Below, one piece after another: positions 6,348 through 60,115 of a DNA stretch of 64,000 nt. The DNA comes from Cellulomonas alba (GTDB lineage Bacteria > Actinomycetota > Actinomycetes > Actinomycetales > Cellulomonadaceae): positions 1,405,461 through 1,469,460 of the forward strand of contig NZ_JAUCGQ010000001.1 of NCBI RefSeq assembly GCF_030362835.1. The letters are read 5' to 3'. A model generated the notes under the pieces. That model saw only the letters and a list, made by a program, of their open reading frames with translations, made no database searches and had not been told where the DNA came from. Every line of letters begins with the position of its first letter. Within the stretch, counting starts at the first letter, position 1. The position numbers and the translations under genes were made by a program.

Positions 6348-6385
6348 GCAGAACGACCCCCGGCGGGTGCCGGGGGTCGTTCTGC
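6348..6385 (-). terminator. strong intrinsic-type hairpin after 108-aa gene
   Basis: A perfect 17-bp stem (6348-6364 with 6369-6385) closes over the tetraloop GGGT, just downstream of the minus-strand gene ending at 6398. There is no long T-run, as is common for terminators in high-GC actinobacteria. Confidence 0.75.
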
Positions 6386-11493: not shown

Positions 11494-11508
11494 CTTGCGT
11501 GATGCAAG
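11494..11508. promoter_or_regulatory. HxlR operator candidate, copy 1
   Basis: CTTGCGTGATGCAAG has 5-bp inverted half-sites CTTGC/GCAAG around a 5-base spacer. Its exact reverse complement occurs at 11527-11541, so the site is present twice in opposite orientation between two divergent starts. Confidence 0.7.
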
Positions 11509-11526
11509 CGACGGTAGCGACCATGA

Positions 11527-11541
11527 CTTGCATCACGCAAG
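11527..11541. promoter_or_regulatory. HxlR operator candidate, copy 2
   Basis: CTTGCATCACGCAAG is the reverse complement of the copy at 11494-11508. It ends four bases before the -10 hexamer of the regulator gene, so binding would block that promoter and allow autoregulation. Confidence 0.7.
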
Positions 11542-12037: not shown

Positions 12038-12085
12038 GCGGGCCGCTGCGCCACGGTGGGTGCGTGCCGTGGCGCAGCGGCCCGC
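12038..12085 (+). terminator. very strong hairpin after HxlR gene
   Basis: A perfect 19-bp stem (12038-12056 with 12067-12085) with a 10-base loop lies 12 bases after the HxlR stop codon. Confidence 0.8.
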
Positions 12086-13630: not shown

Positions 13631-14638
13631 ATGACGACCTGGCGGCTCGGCGACCCGCTCCCCTGGCTCCCCGCGCGGGCCGGCCGGACCGCGCCGCGCC
13701 TGCGCGTCATCGTCGACAACGACTTCTCGGGCGACCCCGACGGTCTCGTCCAGCTGGCTCACCACGTGCTCTCGCCGTCGGTCGACGTCCGCGCGGTGAT
13801 CGGCTCGCGCCCCGCGCCCGAGCCGCAGCACGAGGGCACCGACCAGGCGGCCGCGGCCGTCGCGCGCGCCCGCGAGCTGCTGGCCGTCATGGGCGTCGAG
13901 GCCGCCGGCCGGCTCGTCACGGGATCGGCCGTGACGATGCGGGACGCGACGAGCCCGCTGCCGTCCGACGGCGCGCGCCGGATCGTCGCCGAGGCGATGC
14001 GCGACGACGTCGACACGCCGCTGTTCGTCGCGTGCGGCGCGGGGCTCACCTCGATCGCGTCGGCGCTGCTGATCCAGCCGGCGATCGCCGACCGGCTGAC
14101 GCTCGTGTGGATCGGCGGCGCCGAGCACCCCGGCCTCGCCGCGGCGCCGCACGGTGCGCCGGCTGTCGAGTACAACCAGTCGATCGACCCGGTCGCCGCG
14201 CAGGTCGTGTTCGACTCCGCCCTGCCGCTGTGGCAGGTGCCGCGCGACCGGTACCGGCAGTGCCTCGTCTCGGACGCCGAGCTGCGTCGGCGCGTCGGGT
14301 CACAGGGCACGGTCGGCGCGTTCCTGCACGATGCGATCGCCGCCCTCGTCGAGGCCCGCCGGCGCGACGGAGAGCTGCTCGCCGAAACCTACGCGCTCGG
14401 CGACTCGCCGCTCGTGCTGCTCACCGCGCTCCAGTCGTACTTCGACCGCGACGACGCCGCGAACGCGTTCGTGACGATGCCGCGGCCCCGACTCGACGCC
14501 GTCGGCCGGTACGTGCCGAACCCCGACGGCGCCGCGATCCGGGTGTACACGCGGATCGAGACGCGGCTGATGTTCGAGGACCTGTTCGCGAAGCTCGCCG
14601 ACCTCGCGGAGTGGCAGGCGGCCGCCCCGCGCAGCTGA
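13631..14638 (+). CDS. inosine-uridine nucleoside hydrolase-like protein
   Basis: A 335-residue protein related to IunH nucleoside N-ribohydrolases. The Ca-binding cluster that normally reads DTDPGxDD appears as DNDFSGDPDGL (about residues 29-39), a variant with the key Asp residues kept. Later segments LFVACGAGLTSIASAL, LTLVWIGGAEHPG and VEYNQSIDPVAAQVVF match the ribose-binding and N-x-x-x-D regions of the family. It probably hydrolyses a ribonucleoside in salvage. CACGAT lies six bases before the ATG, consistent with a leaderless message. No nucleoside transporter is adjacent. Confidence 0.82.
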   Translation: MTTWRLGDPLPWLPARAGRTAPRLRVIVDNDFSGDPDGLVQLAHHVLSPSVDVRAVIGSRPAPEPQHEGTDQAAAAVARARELLAVMGVEAAGRLVTGSAVTMRDATSPLPSDGARRIVAEAMRDDVDTPLFVACGAGLTSIASALLIQPAIADRLTLVWIGGAEHPGLAAAPHGAPAVEYNQSIDPVAAQVVFDSALPLWQVPRDRYRQCLVSDAELRRRVGSQGTVGAFLHDAIAALVEARRRDGELLAETYALGDSPLVLLTALQSYFDRDDAANAFVTMPRPRLDAVGRYVPNPDGAAIRVYTRIETRLMFEDLFAKLADLAEWQAAAPRS

Positions 14639-55741: not shown

Positions 55742-56617
55742 ATGCTCCGCCGTGCCGCCGTGGCCGCCTCCCTCGCCCTCCTGCTCGTCCCGGCCGCCGC
55801 GTCTGCGGCGCACGCGCACGGCTCGGACGACCCGACGCCGTACCGCGTGACGTCGTCGGGCATCGAGCTGCCCGCCGGCGCGACGCTCGGCGACGACGCC
55901 GACGTCAACGTCCGCTGGACGCGGGCGAACGTGACGCACGCAGCGAGCCTGCACACGGGCCACGCGGGCGACAGCGGCCACCGCTGGGCGTCGGCGCACA
56001 CCGTGACGTGGGCGGAGCTCGGCGTCCCGACGGGCGCGTGCGTCACGTGGGTCCAGGTGAGCGGGTACGACGAGCACTTCGGCGAGGGTGGCCAGAAGCC
56101 GGTCAGCGTCACGCAGCCGCCGAACGACTGCCCGCGCGGGACCCCGACCGGCTCCCCCACGCCCCCGCCGAGCGCCACACCGGCGGCGCCGCCGACGCCG
56201 CACGCGTGGCCGCGGCACCACCACCCGGGCCGCCACCCGCAGCCGACCTCGACGACGTCGGCGCCCGCACCCTCCACGACCGCGAGCGCCCCCGCGCCGG
56301 CCCACCCGGCGACGGGGCCCGTCCGGCACGGCTCGACGCCCGAGGCGCACCGGCCCGCGCCGGGTGGCGACACCCCGGCCTCGCACGTCGAGGACTCCGC
56401 GCCCACGTCGTCGGCGACGGCAGCGGGCACCCCCGACGACGACACCACGCCCGACGCGACCCCGTCGCCCACCGCCTACGTGCTGGCGGACGACGACGCG
56501 ACGCTCGCCTCGACGGGCGGCGACGCTCGCGGACCGGCGGCGCTCGCCGGGGCCCTCGTGCTGCTCGGCGCCGCCGCGACGGTCGTGGCGCGCGCGCGTC
56601 GCGGCGCACCCCGCTGA
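55742..56617 (+). CDS. secreted cell-wall protein with LAxTG sorting signal
   Basis: A 291-residue exported protein. A signal peptide (about 1-25, ending AAHAHG) is followed by a folded part with GIELPAGATLGDDADVNVRWTRANVTHAASLHTGH and WVQVSGYDEHFGEGGQKPVSV, then a 140-residue Pro/Thr/Ala/Ser-rich spacer containing a His patch (WPRHHHPGRHP). It ends in LASTGG, a hydrophobic segment ALAGALVLLGAAATVV and ARARRG, a sortase signal of the LAxTG type used by class E sortases. No sortase gene is nearby. AAAGGGG precedes the ATG. Its ligand is unknown. Confidence 0.82.
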   Translation: MLRRAAVAASLALLLVPAAASAAHAHGSDDPTPYRVTSSGIELPAGATLGDDADVNVRWTRANVTHAASLHTGHAGDSGHRWASAHTVTWAELGVPTGACVTWVQVSGYDEHFGEGGQKPVSVTQPPNDCPRGTPTGSPTPPPSATPAAPPTPHAWPRHHHPGRHPQPTSTTSAPAPSTTASAPAPAHPATGPVRHGSTPEAHRPAPGGDTPASHVEDSAPTSSATAAGTPDDDTTPDATPSPTAYVLADDDATLASTGGDARGPAALAGALVLLGAAATVVARARRGAPR

Positions 56618-56769
56618 CGACGTACCGGCGCCCGGCGGCCCCTCCCGTCGCCCGACGCAGGCCGGCCGGTGCGCCTCGGCGCGCCGGTCGGCGCCGTCGC
56701 GAGCACCATGTCCTCCATCAGGGTCGCGCCCGCCCCGGAACGCCGCGGCCCCGGACGACGGGGGTCGAC

Positions 56770-57015
56770 ATGTCAGCTCCGGATCAGAAGGTCGAGCGGT
56801 CGAACGGCGTCAGCTGGCGGCTCGTGGTCGGCATCGTGCTGCTCGCGGCCGTCCTCGTGCTCGTGCTCCAGAACACCAAGGAGACGACGTTCGAGCTGTT
56901 CTGGATGAGCGTGAGCGCGCCGCTGTGGATCCTCGTGGTGGCGTCGCTCGTGCTCGGCTTCCTGATCGGCTGGCTCCTGCGCAGCCGCCGCAGCAAGCGT
57001 CGGGCGAACGTCTGA
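56770..57015 (+). CDS. LapA-domain (DUF1049) membrane protein
   Basis: An 81-residue protein with two membrane segments and the family pattern VVGIVLLAAVLVLVLQNTKETTFELFWMSVSAPLWILVVASLVLGFLIGWLLRSRRSKR. The LQNT and GFLIGWL elements are typical. LapA proteins help assemble lipopolysaccharide in Gram-negatives; the role in actinobacteria is not known. The ATG is preceded by GGGGG about 5 bases upstream. It ends 45 bases before a large palindrome. Confidence 0.85.
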   Translation: MSAPDQKVERSNGVSWRLVVGIVLLAAVLVLVLQNTKETTFELFWMSVSAPLWILVVASLVLGFLIGWLLRSRRSKRRANV

Positions 57016-57059
57016 CGGGTGCGGGCCTCGCGTCGAGCGCCGCCCCCCCTCGCCCAGAC

Positions 57060-57115
57060 ACGAACAAAGCCGCGACCACGTGACTGTGCACTCACGTGGT
57101 GGCGGCATTGTTCGT
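57060..57115. repeat. 56-bp near-perfect palindrome
   Basis: Arms of 24 bases (57060-57083 and 57092-57115) pair with only two mismatches around the 8-base loop CTGTGCAC. The core CCACGTGA/TCACGTGG is perfect. It lies in the 176-base gap between the convergent LapA and acyl-CoA oxidase genes. It could end transcription from both sides, but the long stem and AT-containing tips differ from the GC-rich terminators elsewhere here. Confidence 0.8.
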
Positions 57116-57191
57116 CGTCGGGCCGGCAGCGGGACGCTCGTCGGCCCCGCGTGCGGGTCGGGCGGCCACGGCCGCCCGGGGGGTGGCGCCT

Positions 57192-59249
57192 TCAGTGGCG
57201 CTTCTCCGGGACCGGTGCGTCGCCCGAGGCGCGCTGCGCCCGGTAGTACGCGCGCGCCTCGTCCTGGCGCGCGGCCTCGGCGCCCGACGCGATCGCCGCG
57301 CGGACGTGCACCTGGTCGTAGCCGAACGCGTCGACGAGGCCCTGCGCGTGCGGGCGCAGTCGCGTCAGCAGCCGGTCGATGTACGACGTGACGGTCCGCG
57401 CGCGGTGCGCCGACAGGCGCCCGTTGACGAGGTACCAGGCGAGGTGCCGCTCGACGAGCGAGAGCCCGAACAGGTCGCGCAGCCACGTGAGCACCTGCGT
57501 GGTGCCCGCGTCCGACACGCGGTCGAGCGCCGCGGTGAACGACTCCCACTGGATCAGCTCGGCGTGCGCCCGAGCCGCCTCGACGAGGTCGTGCTGGTGC
57601 GCGTTGAACAGCGCCGCCGCCGTCGCGGGGTCCGCCTTGTGCGCGGGCCGCAGGGCGGTGGCGACCTCGGCGACCATCGTCTCGACGCGGTCCACGAGCA
57701 GCGCGCGCTGCGTCTCGGCGTCGCGCAGCTGGCCCGCCGAGCGGCGCGGGTCGCCGGCGTCGCTGATCGTCTGCACGGCACGCGTCAACGGGGTCCGGTA
57801 CCGCGCCGCGTCAGCCGCCCGCTCGGCGACGAGCCGCGCGACCTTGACCGCGTCGAGGTGCTTGAAGGACGTCGAGTAGTCGGCGAGCAGCCGCTTGCCC
57901 ACGAGCTGGTAGAGCACCGTGTTGTCGCCCTCGAACGTCACGTAGACGTCCATGTCGGCGCGCAGCCCGACGATGCGGTTCTCCGCCAGGAAGCCCGCAC
58001 CGCCGCACGCCTCGCGGCACGTCTGCAGCGTGGTGAGCGCGTGCCAGGTGGACGTCGGCTTGAGGGCGGCGGCCAGCGTCTCCAGGTCCTCGCGCGTCTC
58101 GGGCGTGTCGTTGCGGCCCGAGAACACGTCGTCGAACGCCGCGAGCAGGTCCTCGTGCGCGAAGCCCGCGGCGTACGTCTCGGCGAGCAGCGGGAGCAGC
58201 CGGCGCTGGTGCTCGGCGTAGTCGAGGACGACCACCTCCTCGGCGCCCGGTCCCGCGAACTGGCGGCGCTGGTTGCCGTACGTCACGGCGATCGCGAGCC
58301 CCAGCCGGGCGGCCGAGACGGCGGCCCCGTCGAGGGAGACGCGCCCCTGCACCAGCGTGCCGAGCATCGTGAAGAACCGGCGGCCGGGGCTCTCGATCGG
58401 CGAGGAGTACGTGCCGTCCTCGGCGACGTCGCCGTACCGGGCGAGCAGGTTGGTGCGCGGCACGCGCACGTGGTCGAACCAGAGCCGGCCGTTGTCGACG
58501 CCGTTGAGGCCGCCCTTGAGCCCGTCGTCCTCGCCGCCGACGCCCGGCAGGAACTCGCCGGTCGCCTCGTCGCGGATCGGCACGTACACCGCGTGCACAC
58601 CGTGGTCGACGCCTCGGGTGATGAGCCGGGCGAACACCACGGCCGCGGTCGCGTGCTGCCCCGCGTTGCCGAGGTAGTCCTTCCACGCCGCGCGGAACGG
58701 CGTGTGCACCACGAGCTCCTGCGTCTGCGCGTCGTACGTCGCGGTCGTCCCGATCGCCGCGACGTCGCTGCCGTGGCCGGTCTCCGTCATCGCGAACGCG
58801 CCCGGGACCCGGACGGACAGCGAGTCCGCCAGGAACTCGTCGTGGTTCCGCTCGGTGCCCAGGTGGTAGATCGCCGACGCGAACAGGCCCCACTGCACGC
58901 CGGACTTGATCTGCAGCGACGGGTCCGCCGACGTCAGCTCCTCGAAGCGCGCGAGGAACCCGCCGTGGTCGTTGGCGCCGCCGAACCGCTCGGGGAACGA
59001 GCGGTGCACGTCGCCCTCGGCCGCGAGCAGACGCAGCTGGCCCAGCACGCGCTCGCGGTGCTCGGCGAGCGTCAGGTCGTCCTGCTTGTGGAAGCGCGGG
59101 TCGGCCATGAGGCGGCGGGCGCCGAGGCGCAGGTCGGCGTAGTGGCCGAGCAGGACGCGCTGCAGGTGGGCGACGTCGAGACCCGCGTCGCGGTCGAGCC
59201 GGGGGTCACCCAGCTCGGGCGCGTCGGGGCGGTGCTCGGTGGTGGTCAT
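57192..59249 (-). CDS. acyl-CoA oxidase/dehydrogenase family protein
   Basis: A 685-residue flavoprotein expected to oxidise acyl-CoA at the alpha-beta bond. It is longer than classic acyl-CoA dehydrogenases and shows oxidase-type features: AFAMTETGHGSDVAAIGTTATYD, VHAVYVPIRD, TYGNQRRQFAGPGAEEVVVLDYAEHQRRLLP and CREACGGAGFLAENRI. A long C-terminal helical domain follows. AAGGAG lies before the ATG. The start overlaps the TetR gene stop by four bases, so it is co-transcribed with that regulator and divergent from the thiolase operon. Confidence 0.9.
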   Translation of the reverse strand: MTTTEHRPDAPELGDPRLDRDAGLDVAHLQRVLLGHYADLRLGARRLMADPRFHKQDDLTLAEHRERVLGQLRLLAAEGDVHRSFPERFGGANDHGGFLARFEELTSADPSLQIKSGVQWGLFASAIYHLGTERNHDEFLADSLSVRVPGAFAMTETGHGSDVAAIGTTATYDAQTQELVVHTPFRAAWKDYLGNAGQHATAAVVFARLITRGVDHGVHAVYVPIRDEATGEFLPGVGGEDDGLKGGLNGVDNGRLWFDHVRVPRTNLLARYGDVAEDGTYSSPIESPGRRFFTMLGTLVQGRVSLDGAAVSAARLGLAIAVTYGNQRRQFAGPGAEEVVVLDYAEHQRRLLPLLAETYAAGFAHEDLLAAFDDVFSGRNDTPETREDLETLAAALKPTSTWHALTTLQTCREACGGAGFLAENRIVGLRADMDVYVTFEGDNTVLYQLVGKRLLADYSTSFKHLDAVKVARLVAERAADAARYRTPLTRAVQTISDAGDPRRSAGQLRDAETQRALLVDRVETMVAEVATALRPAHKADPATAAALFNAHQHDLVEAARAHAELIQWESFTAALDRVSDAGTTQVLTWLRDLFGLSLVERHLAWYLVNGRLSAHRARTVTSYIDRLLTRLRPHAQGLVDAFGYDQVHVRAAIASGAEAARQDEARAYYRAQRASGDAPVPEKRH

Positions 59250-60115
59250 CGGGACTCCTTCGTGCCGGTGGTGCTGGAGGTGCTGGGCGCGGGCTCCGCC
59301 GCGACGGGTCGGCCGCGGTCGCGCGCGAGCAGGCCGACGGGCCCGGCCCACAGCCACGCCGCGACCTGGGCGGTGAGGGTCTCCCTGTCCGGCGCGCCGG
59401 GGACGTCGCGGTGCGCCAGCCACCACTCGCCCGCGCCGCGCACGAAGCCGACCGCGCCGGCGGCCCACGAGTCGACGAGCGCGAGGCGCGCAGCGTCCTC
59501 GGGGTCGGCCGTGGCGGTGCCGGGGAGCGGGGCGTCGTCCGGGCGGCGCGCGACGCGTCGGCCGTCGGGCTGCTCGGCCGTGAGCCCTCGGGCGAACGGC
59601 GCGGCCACGAGCGCGGTCACGGAGTCGAGGAAGTGGCCGAGCGGCCCGCCCGACTCGATCGACCCGTCGCGCGTGACGAACGCGTACACGTGCGGCGACG
59701 ACTCGATCATCTCGAGGTACACGGCGACCATGGCGCGCAGGCCCTCGCGGGGCGTCGGCGCGACGCGGACCACGCCCTCGAGCGCGCCCTGGATCTGCAG
59801 CACGACGGCCTCCGCGACCGCGATCTGCAGGCCCGTCTTGTCCGCGAAGTAGCGGTAGACGATCGACTTCGAGGTGCCGGCGGCCGCGGCGATCTCCTCC
59901 ATGGAGACGTCGGGGCCCTTGTGGTGGACCGTGCGCCGCGCGATGCGCACGAGCTCGGCTCGGCGCGCCTCCCGGTGGTCGGCCCACCGGGTGGACCGGC
60001 CGTCGATCGGCATCTCCGGCGGCGTCCCCTGGTGCGCCACACGCGGGCGTGCGGCATCGTCGCGATGCGAGGAGGGGCCCGTCTCCTTCGACGGGCCCGC
60101 TGTGATCGGGCTCAC
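59246..60115 (-). CDS. TetR-family regulator of the fatty-acyl module
   Basis: A 289-residue regulator. An N-terminal extension of about 45 residues precedes the HTH, with EARRAELVRIARRTVHHKG, VSMEEIAAAAGTSKSIVYRYFADKTGLQ; the rest is a helical ligand domain. Its position between divergent beta-oxidation-type genes suggests control by acyl-CoA, as with FadR-type TetR proteins. GTG is chosen because TACCTT lies seven bases upstream; a later ATG (MPIDGRS) is the alternative start. Confidence 0.85.
   Translation of the reverse strand: MSPITAGPSKETGPSSHRDDAARPRVAHQGTPPEMPIDGRSTRWADHREARRAELVRIARRTVHHKGPDVSMEEIAAAAGTSKSIVYRYFADKTGLQIAVAEAVVLQIQGALEGVVRVAPTPREGLRAMVAVYLEMIESSPHVYAFVTRDGSIESGGPLGHFLDSVTALVAAPFARGLTAEQPDGRRVARRPDDAPLPGTATADPEDAARLALVDSWAAGAVGFVRGAGEWWLAHRDVPGAPDRETLTAQVAAWLWAGPVGLLARDRGRPVAAEPAPSTSSTTGTKESR

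Follow-up and report, generated by a model that had tools for sequence, protein, structure and literature searches.

A Dispersed Family of 54-bp Palindromes in Cellulomonas alba: Candidate Sites for Symmetric Recognition

Introduction

The REP and REPIN repeats of the RAYT system are the first of the described elements to be considered here. REPs are 20–40 bp in length, carry a GTAG tag, and usually number over 100 copies, as two papers describe them (PMC3733652, PMC2817692). In this report, we describe a palindrome from Cellulomonas alba that lies in a stretch of 64,000 nucleotides (hereafter the window; NZ_JAUCGQ010000001.1, positions 1,405,461 to 1,469,460), together with the family to which it belongs. 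Like the REPs and REPINs, the members of this family are small, palindromic, intergenic, species-specific, and capable of forming a hairpin. Unlike REPs, they are 54 bp long, number 11 copies, have no GTAG tag, and are found in a genome with no match to Y1_Tnp. When the sequences on either side of all 11 copies were read by eye, neither GTAG nor a related tag was seen at the foot of the hairpin.

Some known palindromic repeats have no transposase of their own. The CGTC-tagged REPs are of this kind; their stems are 8–9 bp, and the paper that describes them lists five phyla and does not use the word Actinobacteria in its main text (PMC3733652). The stem of the window family, at about 25 bp, falls outside this range, and CGTC follows the right arm in some of the 11 copies only.

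Two further kinds of sites invite comparison. The parS/ParB, Noc, and matS/MatP systems each use a dyad motif that is present in about 10 copies gathered in one region of the chromosome. The window family has in common with these systems the dyad, the approximately ten copies, and the regional gathering. It differs from them in that its sites are much longer (54 bp, and 68 bp in congeners) and their sequence is species-specific, and it does not match the parS consensus. With bidirectional intrinsic terminators, the family shares its place behind stop codons and its strong hairpin; it differs from these in its fixed length, invariant ends, repeated sequence, and lack of a T-run at the window copy. 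A search of open-licence papers returned no description of such palindromes in Cellulomonas-like actinobacteria. Small palindromic repeats are already known; the species-specific layout of four half-sites within 54 or 68 bp did not turn up in this search.

Results

Structure and Rarity of the Palindrome

A 56-bp near-perfect palindrome between convergent genes, with 24-base arms that differ at two positions, had been proposed from the letters of the window, and the sequence together with the flanking open reading frames confirms it. The palindrome reads ACGAACAAAGCCGCGACCACGTGA-CTGTGCAC-TCACGTGGTGGCGGCATTGTTCGT, with two 24-base arms around an 8-base centre, two mismatches between the arms (A opposite A and G opposite G), and one CACGTG in each arm. 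The features at this locus and the positions of the other family copies are collected in Table 1. Among the 70 inverted repeats listed in the window with at most 40 nt between their arms, the palindrome ranks second (27-nt arms, 89% complementary); three other listed repeats have longer arms, but these are only 74–75% complementary. The predicted RNA fold of a 96-nt stretch that contains the palindrome has an energy of -59.8 kcal/mol, compared with a mean of -36.3 for shuffled sequences (z -6.75), and none of the 200 shuffles equaled it. When up to three mismatches were allowed, the arm was found within the window only as the two arms of the palindrome itself, where shuffles predict a mean of 0.00 occurrences.

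The stem had also been called far longer than termination requires, and its length is indeed unusual. A survey of the window and 20 samples of 20 kb, one of which overlaps the window, gave 40 hairpins (37 distinct), and just four of these have arms of at least 26 nt: the window palindrome, a second family copy (L138), and two hairpins in L139, at 4814 (28-nt arms, 1 mismatch) and at 14244 (36-nt arms, 7 mismatches). The further claim that the AT-containing tips are unlike those of nearby terminators was overstated, as similar ACGAA/TTCGT-type tips are present on other hairpins of the genome, including ACGACGAAGGCC...GGCCTTCGTCGT (L133) and GCAGAACGACC...GGTCGTTCTGC (window 6348–6385). No Rfam match was obtained for window positions 56700–57500 at E values up to 1, and a promoter and terminator scan of positions 56500–57700 found no T-run terminators.

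Other palindromes were noticed in the course of this work. An imperfect palindrome at window positions 11494–11541, with arms CTTGCGTGATGCAAG... and ...CTTGCATCACGCAAG, has a G+C content below that of the surrounding hairpins, and a hairpin at 12038–12085 has perfect 19-bp arms and a 10-nt loop. An AT-rich palindrome, TCAAATCGATTCGATC...GATCGAATCGATTTGA, is found at positions 1387–1433 of L133 in this genome of about 73% G+C.

Table 1. Features of the palindrome locus (window coordinates) and positions of the family copies (contig coordinates)
Feature	Position	Strand	Basis or remark
Near-perfect palindrome	57060..57115	.	54-bp family core = 57061-57114; family copy C1:1462518-1462577
Left outer unit CGAACAAAGCCG	57061..57072	+	CGAAC invariant in 22/22 half-sites
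Left inner unit CGACCACGTGACTGT	57073..57087	+	Resembles CGAGAACGTGACTTC unit of congener G020
Right inner unit, inverted	57088..57102	-	Copy alignment
Right outer unit, inverted	57103..57114	-	Copy alignment
Short G+C-only hairpin GGGCGGCC-AC-GGCCGCCC	57160..57177	.	Read from sequence; between palindrome and oxidase gene
Small membrane protein gene, 81 aa, LapA look	56770..57015	+	End 46 nt before 54-bp core
ORF holding acyl-CoA oxidase gene, true start inside ORF	57192..59987	-	Convergent; ends 78 nt after palindrome
Family copies	C1 1033460, 1462518 (window), 1737594, 1738739, 1755739, 1812437	both	R1
Family copies	C1 2055850, 2068651, 2159540, 2201596; C2 292129	both	R1

Eleven Gapless Copies in One Genome

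The first further copies came from searches with the arm tips, which returned palindromes of the same length, and a covariance model (R1) was built from nine copies. Using R1 to search the 3.8-Mb genome, 11 places were found, each on both strands and each 54 bp without gaps. Among these 11 copies the lowest-scoring strand reached 42.7 bits, whereas the best place outside them reached 22.2 bits, with 150 of 6219 first-look candidates scored; within that scored set, no decayed or truncated copy lies between these values. The copies at C1:1737594 and C1:1033460 were recovered by R1 although they were absent from its alignment. The original prediction had named a multi-copy result of a genome search for the arm sequence as support for a REP/MITE element, and this is the result that was obtained. 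The opposite outcome, a single copy that acts only as a terminator, did not occur and is ruled out by the 11 copies.

The pairwise identity of the gapless alignment ranges from 29 to 48 of 54 positions (mean 39.5). None of the 22 half-sites departs from CGAAC at its end or from C at two inner positions. Two-sided changes are present at 12 of the 25 stem pairs, 7 pairs never vary, and 83.3% of the cells are paired. The covariation score is 0.204, compared with 0.102 in shuffles, and none of 500 shuffles was as high, although kinship among sequences can by itself give values above such shuffles in the absence of structure; sliding the partner positions likewise lowers every measure. The two arms of a given copy are more alike than the arms of different copies (p 0.003). 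Judged by eye, the likeness among the 11 copies ends within 1–3 bases outside the palindrome, and no direct (target-site) duplications were noticed in these flanks, the copies being diverged. Because the CGAAC ends are invariant, the copies gapless, and the changes two-sided, the ends, symmetry, and length have been preserved, whereas the remainder drifted. No decayed copies were seen despite clear divergence, which argues for selection maintaining every copy.

Neighboring Genes

All 11 copies are found 20–73 nt past a stop codon, as placed by a codon-usage gene call. Five copies lie between convergent genes, six between co-directional genes, and none between divergent genes. In this tally the gene to the right of the L028 copy is a call of just 84 aa, and an earlier, coarser gene call had given some neighbors other names. 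A hairpin soon after the stop codon, as expected of an intrinsic terminator, is therefore present in every copy; the T-rich run expected after the stem is absent at the window copy, and such organisms may dispense with it. No common function among the genes next to the copies is apparent from Pfam. The product of the gene upstream of the window palindrome is putatively LapA-like, and protein matches to it were found in 22 of 59 other congeners.

The copies at C1:1737594 and C1:1738739 (L066 1501–1560 and L064 1501–1560) are 1.1 kb apart and flank a single gene, an arrangement like that of the palindromic ends of a small unit. In our reading the enclosed gene has the look of AbiEi/DUF559; it matched no Pfam family at 0.001 and no NCBIfam family. 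As a candidate mover of the palindromes this gene gained no support: matches to it are present in 35 of 40 genomes, yet there are none in G020, the genome that yielded the most of the 68-bp palindromes described below.

Position on the Chromosome

The dnaA gene is located at C1:1929914, and 8 of the 11 family members are no more than 0.3 Mb away. The 10 copies on C1 are on average 281 kb from dnaA, whereas randomly placed sites average 800 kb (p 0.0003; 0.0006 when the neighboring pair is treated as a single copy); the origin was picked as the centre only after the positions of the copies were known. The copy at C1:1033460 is 0.9 Mb away from dnaA, and the copy at C2:292129 cannot be placed relative to it. 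The GC skew of the 20 sampled stretches was too noisy to mark the replichores. The gathering of copies in one region, as expected of regional chromosome-organizing sites, is thus found in C. alba with a post hoc centre and is suggestive only in G020.

Searches in Relatives and in Mobile DNA

In 38 other genomes, 24 of them from the same genus, no place scored above 40.9 bits with R1, and the family is absent from them. Nor did R1 find a copy at the locus equivalent to the window in seven relatives (L078–L084); a different hairpin is found near the equivalent place in three of these (L079, L081, and L084), and G020 has another hairpin there, behind its oxidase gene. A strict arm pattern gave one match in the genome_contigs collection, in a Planctomycetota MAG (L076), in a scan that may omit records near the own genome of the family. 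This hairpin departs from the consensus at 26 of 54 positions, lies by eye between the end of an ORF and a tRNA gene, and was rejected as a family member and taken as an unrelated terminator.

Neither viral contigs, searched with the strict pattern, nor phages contained a match to the 54-bp form. Two Sandaracinus plasmid records matched at an E value of 0.03, inside a peptide synthetase gene, and were rejected as a plasmid source. For the 68-bp form, plasmids and phages gave no match, and a single match in viral_contigs to half of the 68-bp pattern was discarded, no palindrome being visible there by eye. Nothing in these searches points to phages or plasmids as the source of either form.

Longer Palindromes in Congeners

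Palindromes of 68 bp with a comparable layout were found in 9 of 59 congeners, a count that does not mean that the other 50 lack them. They were located via R1, a sequence pattern, or one scan of the G008 origin region, so the sample leans toward resemblance to the window family, and their borders were set by hand for the comparisons of neighboring genes, inner-unit scores, and unit layout. In G020 there are 12 such palindromes of 68–69 bp, built from CGAGAACGTGACTTC-like units; at one additional pattern match in this genome (C9:173105, L224), there is no palindrome.

In 23 elements from six congeners, each arm contains a tandem pair of 15-bp units at an offset of 19 bp. The outer and inner units match at 9–15 of 15 positions (6 in one arm), and no other offset yields more than 9 matches. 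When G044, G064, and G008 are included, 25 elements in nine congeners fit the 68-bp layout, a set that excludes one 69-bp element of G020, and within the 100 units of these elements GAG and CG are nearly invariant. The window family does not fall within this class, as it is 54 bp long, its unit offset is 12, and the inner unit alone is alike.

The inner unit of the window family scores 14.2–17.8 bits on all 11 G020 elements scored, 11.9 bits on G071, and 12.3 bits on G024. Five elements from G022, G009, and G015 receive only 5.6–7.5 bits, no better than the 54 palindromes used as controls, which reach up to 8.8 bits and from which the G008 element was not cleared. Kinship with the window family, seen as clear likeness in sequence, is therefore shown in three congeners alone (G020, G071, and G024), and for G020 the comparison was not blind, since this genome was found through the window-family model. 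The likeness does not extend to the whole 68-bp class: five of the six elements of G022, G009, G015, and G024 score as the controls do.

Units within an element of G022 are more alike than units of different elements (11.5 versus 9.7 of 15, p 0.004); in G020, this difference is not significant (p 0.11). At another place in G022 (C7, L235 551–1304), four long palindromes that follow the 68-bp layout and differ in their unit sequences lie together between two convergent genes, within roughly 1 kb.

Three loci that have a 68-bp palindrome in G020 or G064 can be aligned on both sides with C. alba, which has no palindrome at these places. G009 and G015 have a 68-bp palindrome in common at one locus, where their DNA is 92% identical. 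The 12 elements of G020 lie between divergent genes (4), convergent genes (4), and co-directional genes (3), with one undetermined, and since 4 of the 12 are between divergent genes, the class in G020 is not confined to terminator positions.

Of 10 copy-bearing stretches from G020, 5 match origin-proximal DNA with more than 1000 bits. One of the remaining stretches corresponds to the window region, which is about 0.5 Mb from dnaA, and the other 4 gave nothing strong. Among nine G020 stretches in which no copy is known, two match far samples, and a match to origin-proximal DNA above 1000 bits was not obtained for any. The origin-proximal reference was DNA within 0.4 Mb of dnaA in C. alba or within 0.2 Mb of dnaA in G008. 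The placement of the G020 copies near the origin is only suggestive, because the reference is mostly origin-proximal and the 385-kb dnaA contig of G020 holds a single copy.

Discussion

The palindrome in the window is one of a multi-copy family with a fixed length, compensatory changes, invariant ends, positions 3' of genes, and clustering around dnaA, and it is absent from the same locus in relatives. The original prediction had offered a REP-like or mobile element, or a protein-binding site. The multiplicity of the copies agrees with this, a REP in the strict sense does not survive, and both the REP-like and the binding-site readings are live. Tentatively, we prefer to regard the palindrome as a dispersed, species-specific site that is kept for symmetric recognition, perhaps by a protein of the origin domain, a reading that we consider plausible but short of probable.

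A candidate sequence-specific protein would recognize the CGAAC at the two ends, which never varies, together with the central ACTGCGCAGT; it could do so in duplex DNA or in a hairpin extruded from it. The fixed length and symmetry of the 54-bp site would be maintained by selection. Because the copies concentrate near the origin, a role in a chromosome domain or one linked to replication would be the most likely. Directly behind stop codons, a long hairpin would do little harm and may also end transcripts. The binding protein, its symmetric mode of binding, and the domain role are what we infer here. In favor of the recognition-site reading we also count the 68-bp palindromes of comparable layout in nine congeners and the origin-proximal matches of 5 of 10 copy-bearing stretches in G020, compared with 0 of 9 stretches in which no copy is known. 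Against it we count the likeness of units within single elements of G022, which would not be needed if a single protein bound them all, the post hoc choice of the origin as the centre, the single copy on the dnaA contig of G020, the mostly origin-proximal reference used for the G020 stretches, the copy at C1:1033460, the unplaced copy at C2:292129, and the control-range scores of five of the six elements from G022, G009, G015, and G024.

A broader form of this proposal extends to the genus. Palindromes of 54–68 bp, with four inverted and tandem half-sites and about ten or more copies per genome in some species, might be fast-evolving chromosome-domain sites that a co-evolving candidate protein uses to mark or fold the origin-proximal region, each species having its own sequence. 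We consider this extension rather unlikely.

The alternative that survives best is a REP-like, non-autonomous mobile repeat, copied by a transposase that is not a RAYT or has since been lost, whose copies survive best behind genes. This is possible but doubtful. The dispersal of copies across unrelated gene contexts, the species-specific sequence, and the gene flanked by two copies would all be expected of such a repeat, as would the absence of palindromes from C. alba at the three G020/G064 loci and of the family from the window locus in seven relatives, with another hairpin there in G020. A RAYT-type REP was rejected because Y1_Tnp (PF01797), the only transposase family searched, was found in none of 11 genomes at E values up to 0.1, whereas 8 of 14 control genomes were positive. 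Mobility in general is also opposed by the lack of target-site duplications noticed by eye in the flanks, by the absence of truncated or decayed copies in a family that has diverged, and by the regional clustering of the copies. Viral and phage sequences for the 54-bp form, and plasmid and phage sequences for the 68-bp form, gave no matches, and the weak plasmid matches to the 54-bp form fall in a coding gene.

It is less likely than either the recognition site or the mobile repeat, and improbable on the whole, that the family is a plain bidirectional terminator or an RNA 3'-end hairpin whose sequence has been spread among loci by duplication or gene conversion. Such a hairpin would account for the position of every copy shortly past a called stop codon without any divergent pair, for the strength of the RNA fold, and for the other hairpins near the same place in three of seven relatives. 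It does not explain the fixed 54-bp length, the invariant CGAAC ends, or the regional clustering, and the absence of T-runs around the window palindrome and the divergent genes at 4 of the 12 palindromes of the 68-bp class in G020 also argue against it. That the palindrome is a long but meaningless inverted repeat in a G+C-rich genome that abounds in hairpins is refuted by eleven similar gapless copies and can be dismissed.

If the sites are functional, they would imply that an actinobacterial genus has a DNA-binding protein, so far undescribed, by which the origin region is marked or organized, with a site sequence that varies by species. If they are mobile, they would be palindromic repeats that spread in the absence of the Y1-type transposase to which the spread of REPs is attributed. 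In both cases, 54-bp or 68-bp DNA would make a precise probe for binding by cell extracts, owing to its fixed length and four-unit layout.

A different near-perfect palindrome of 58 bp is also found near the origin of the same genome (L160 19338–19395). It has 29-nt arms with 2 mismatches and is not a member of the window family.
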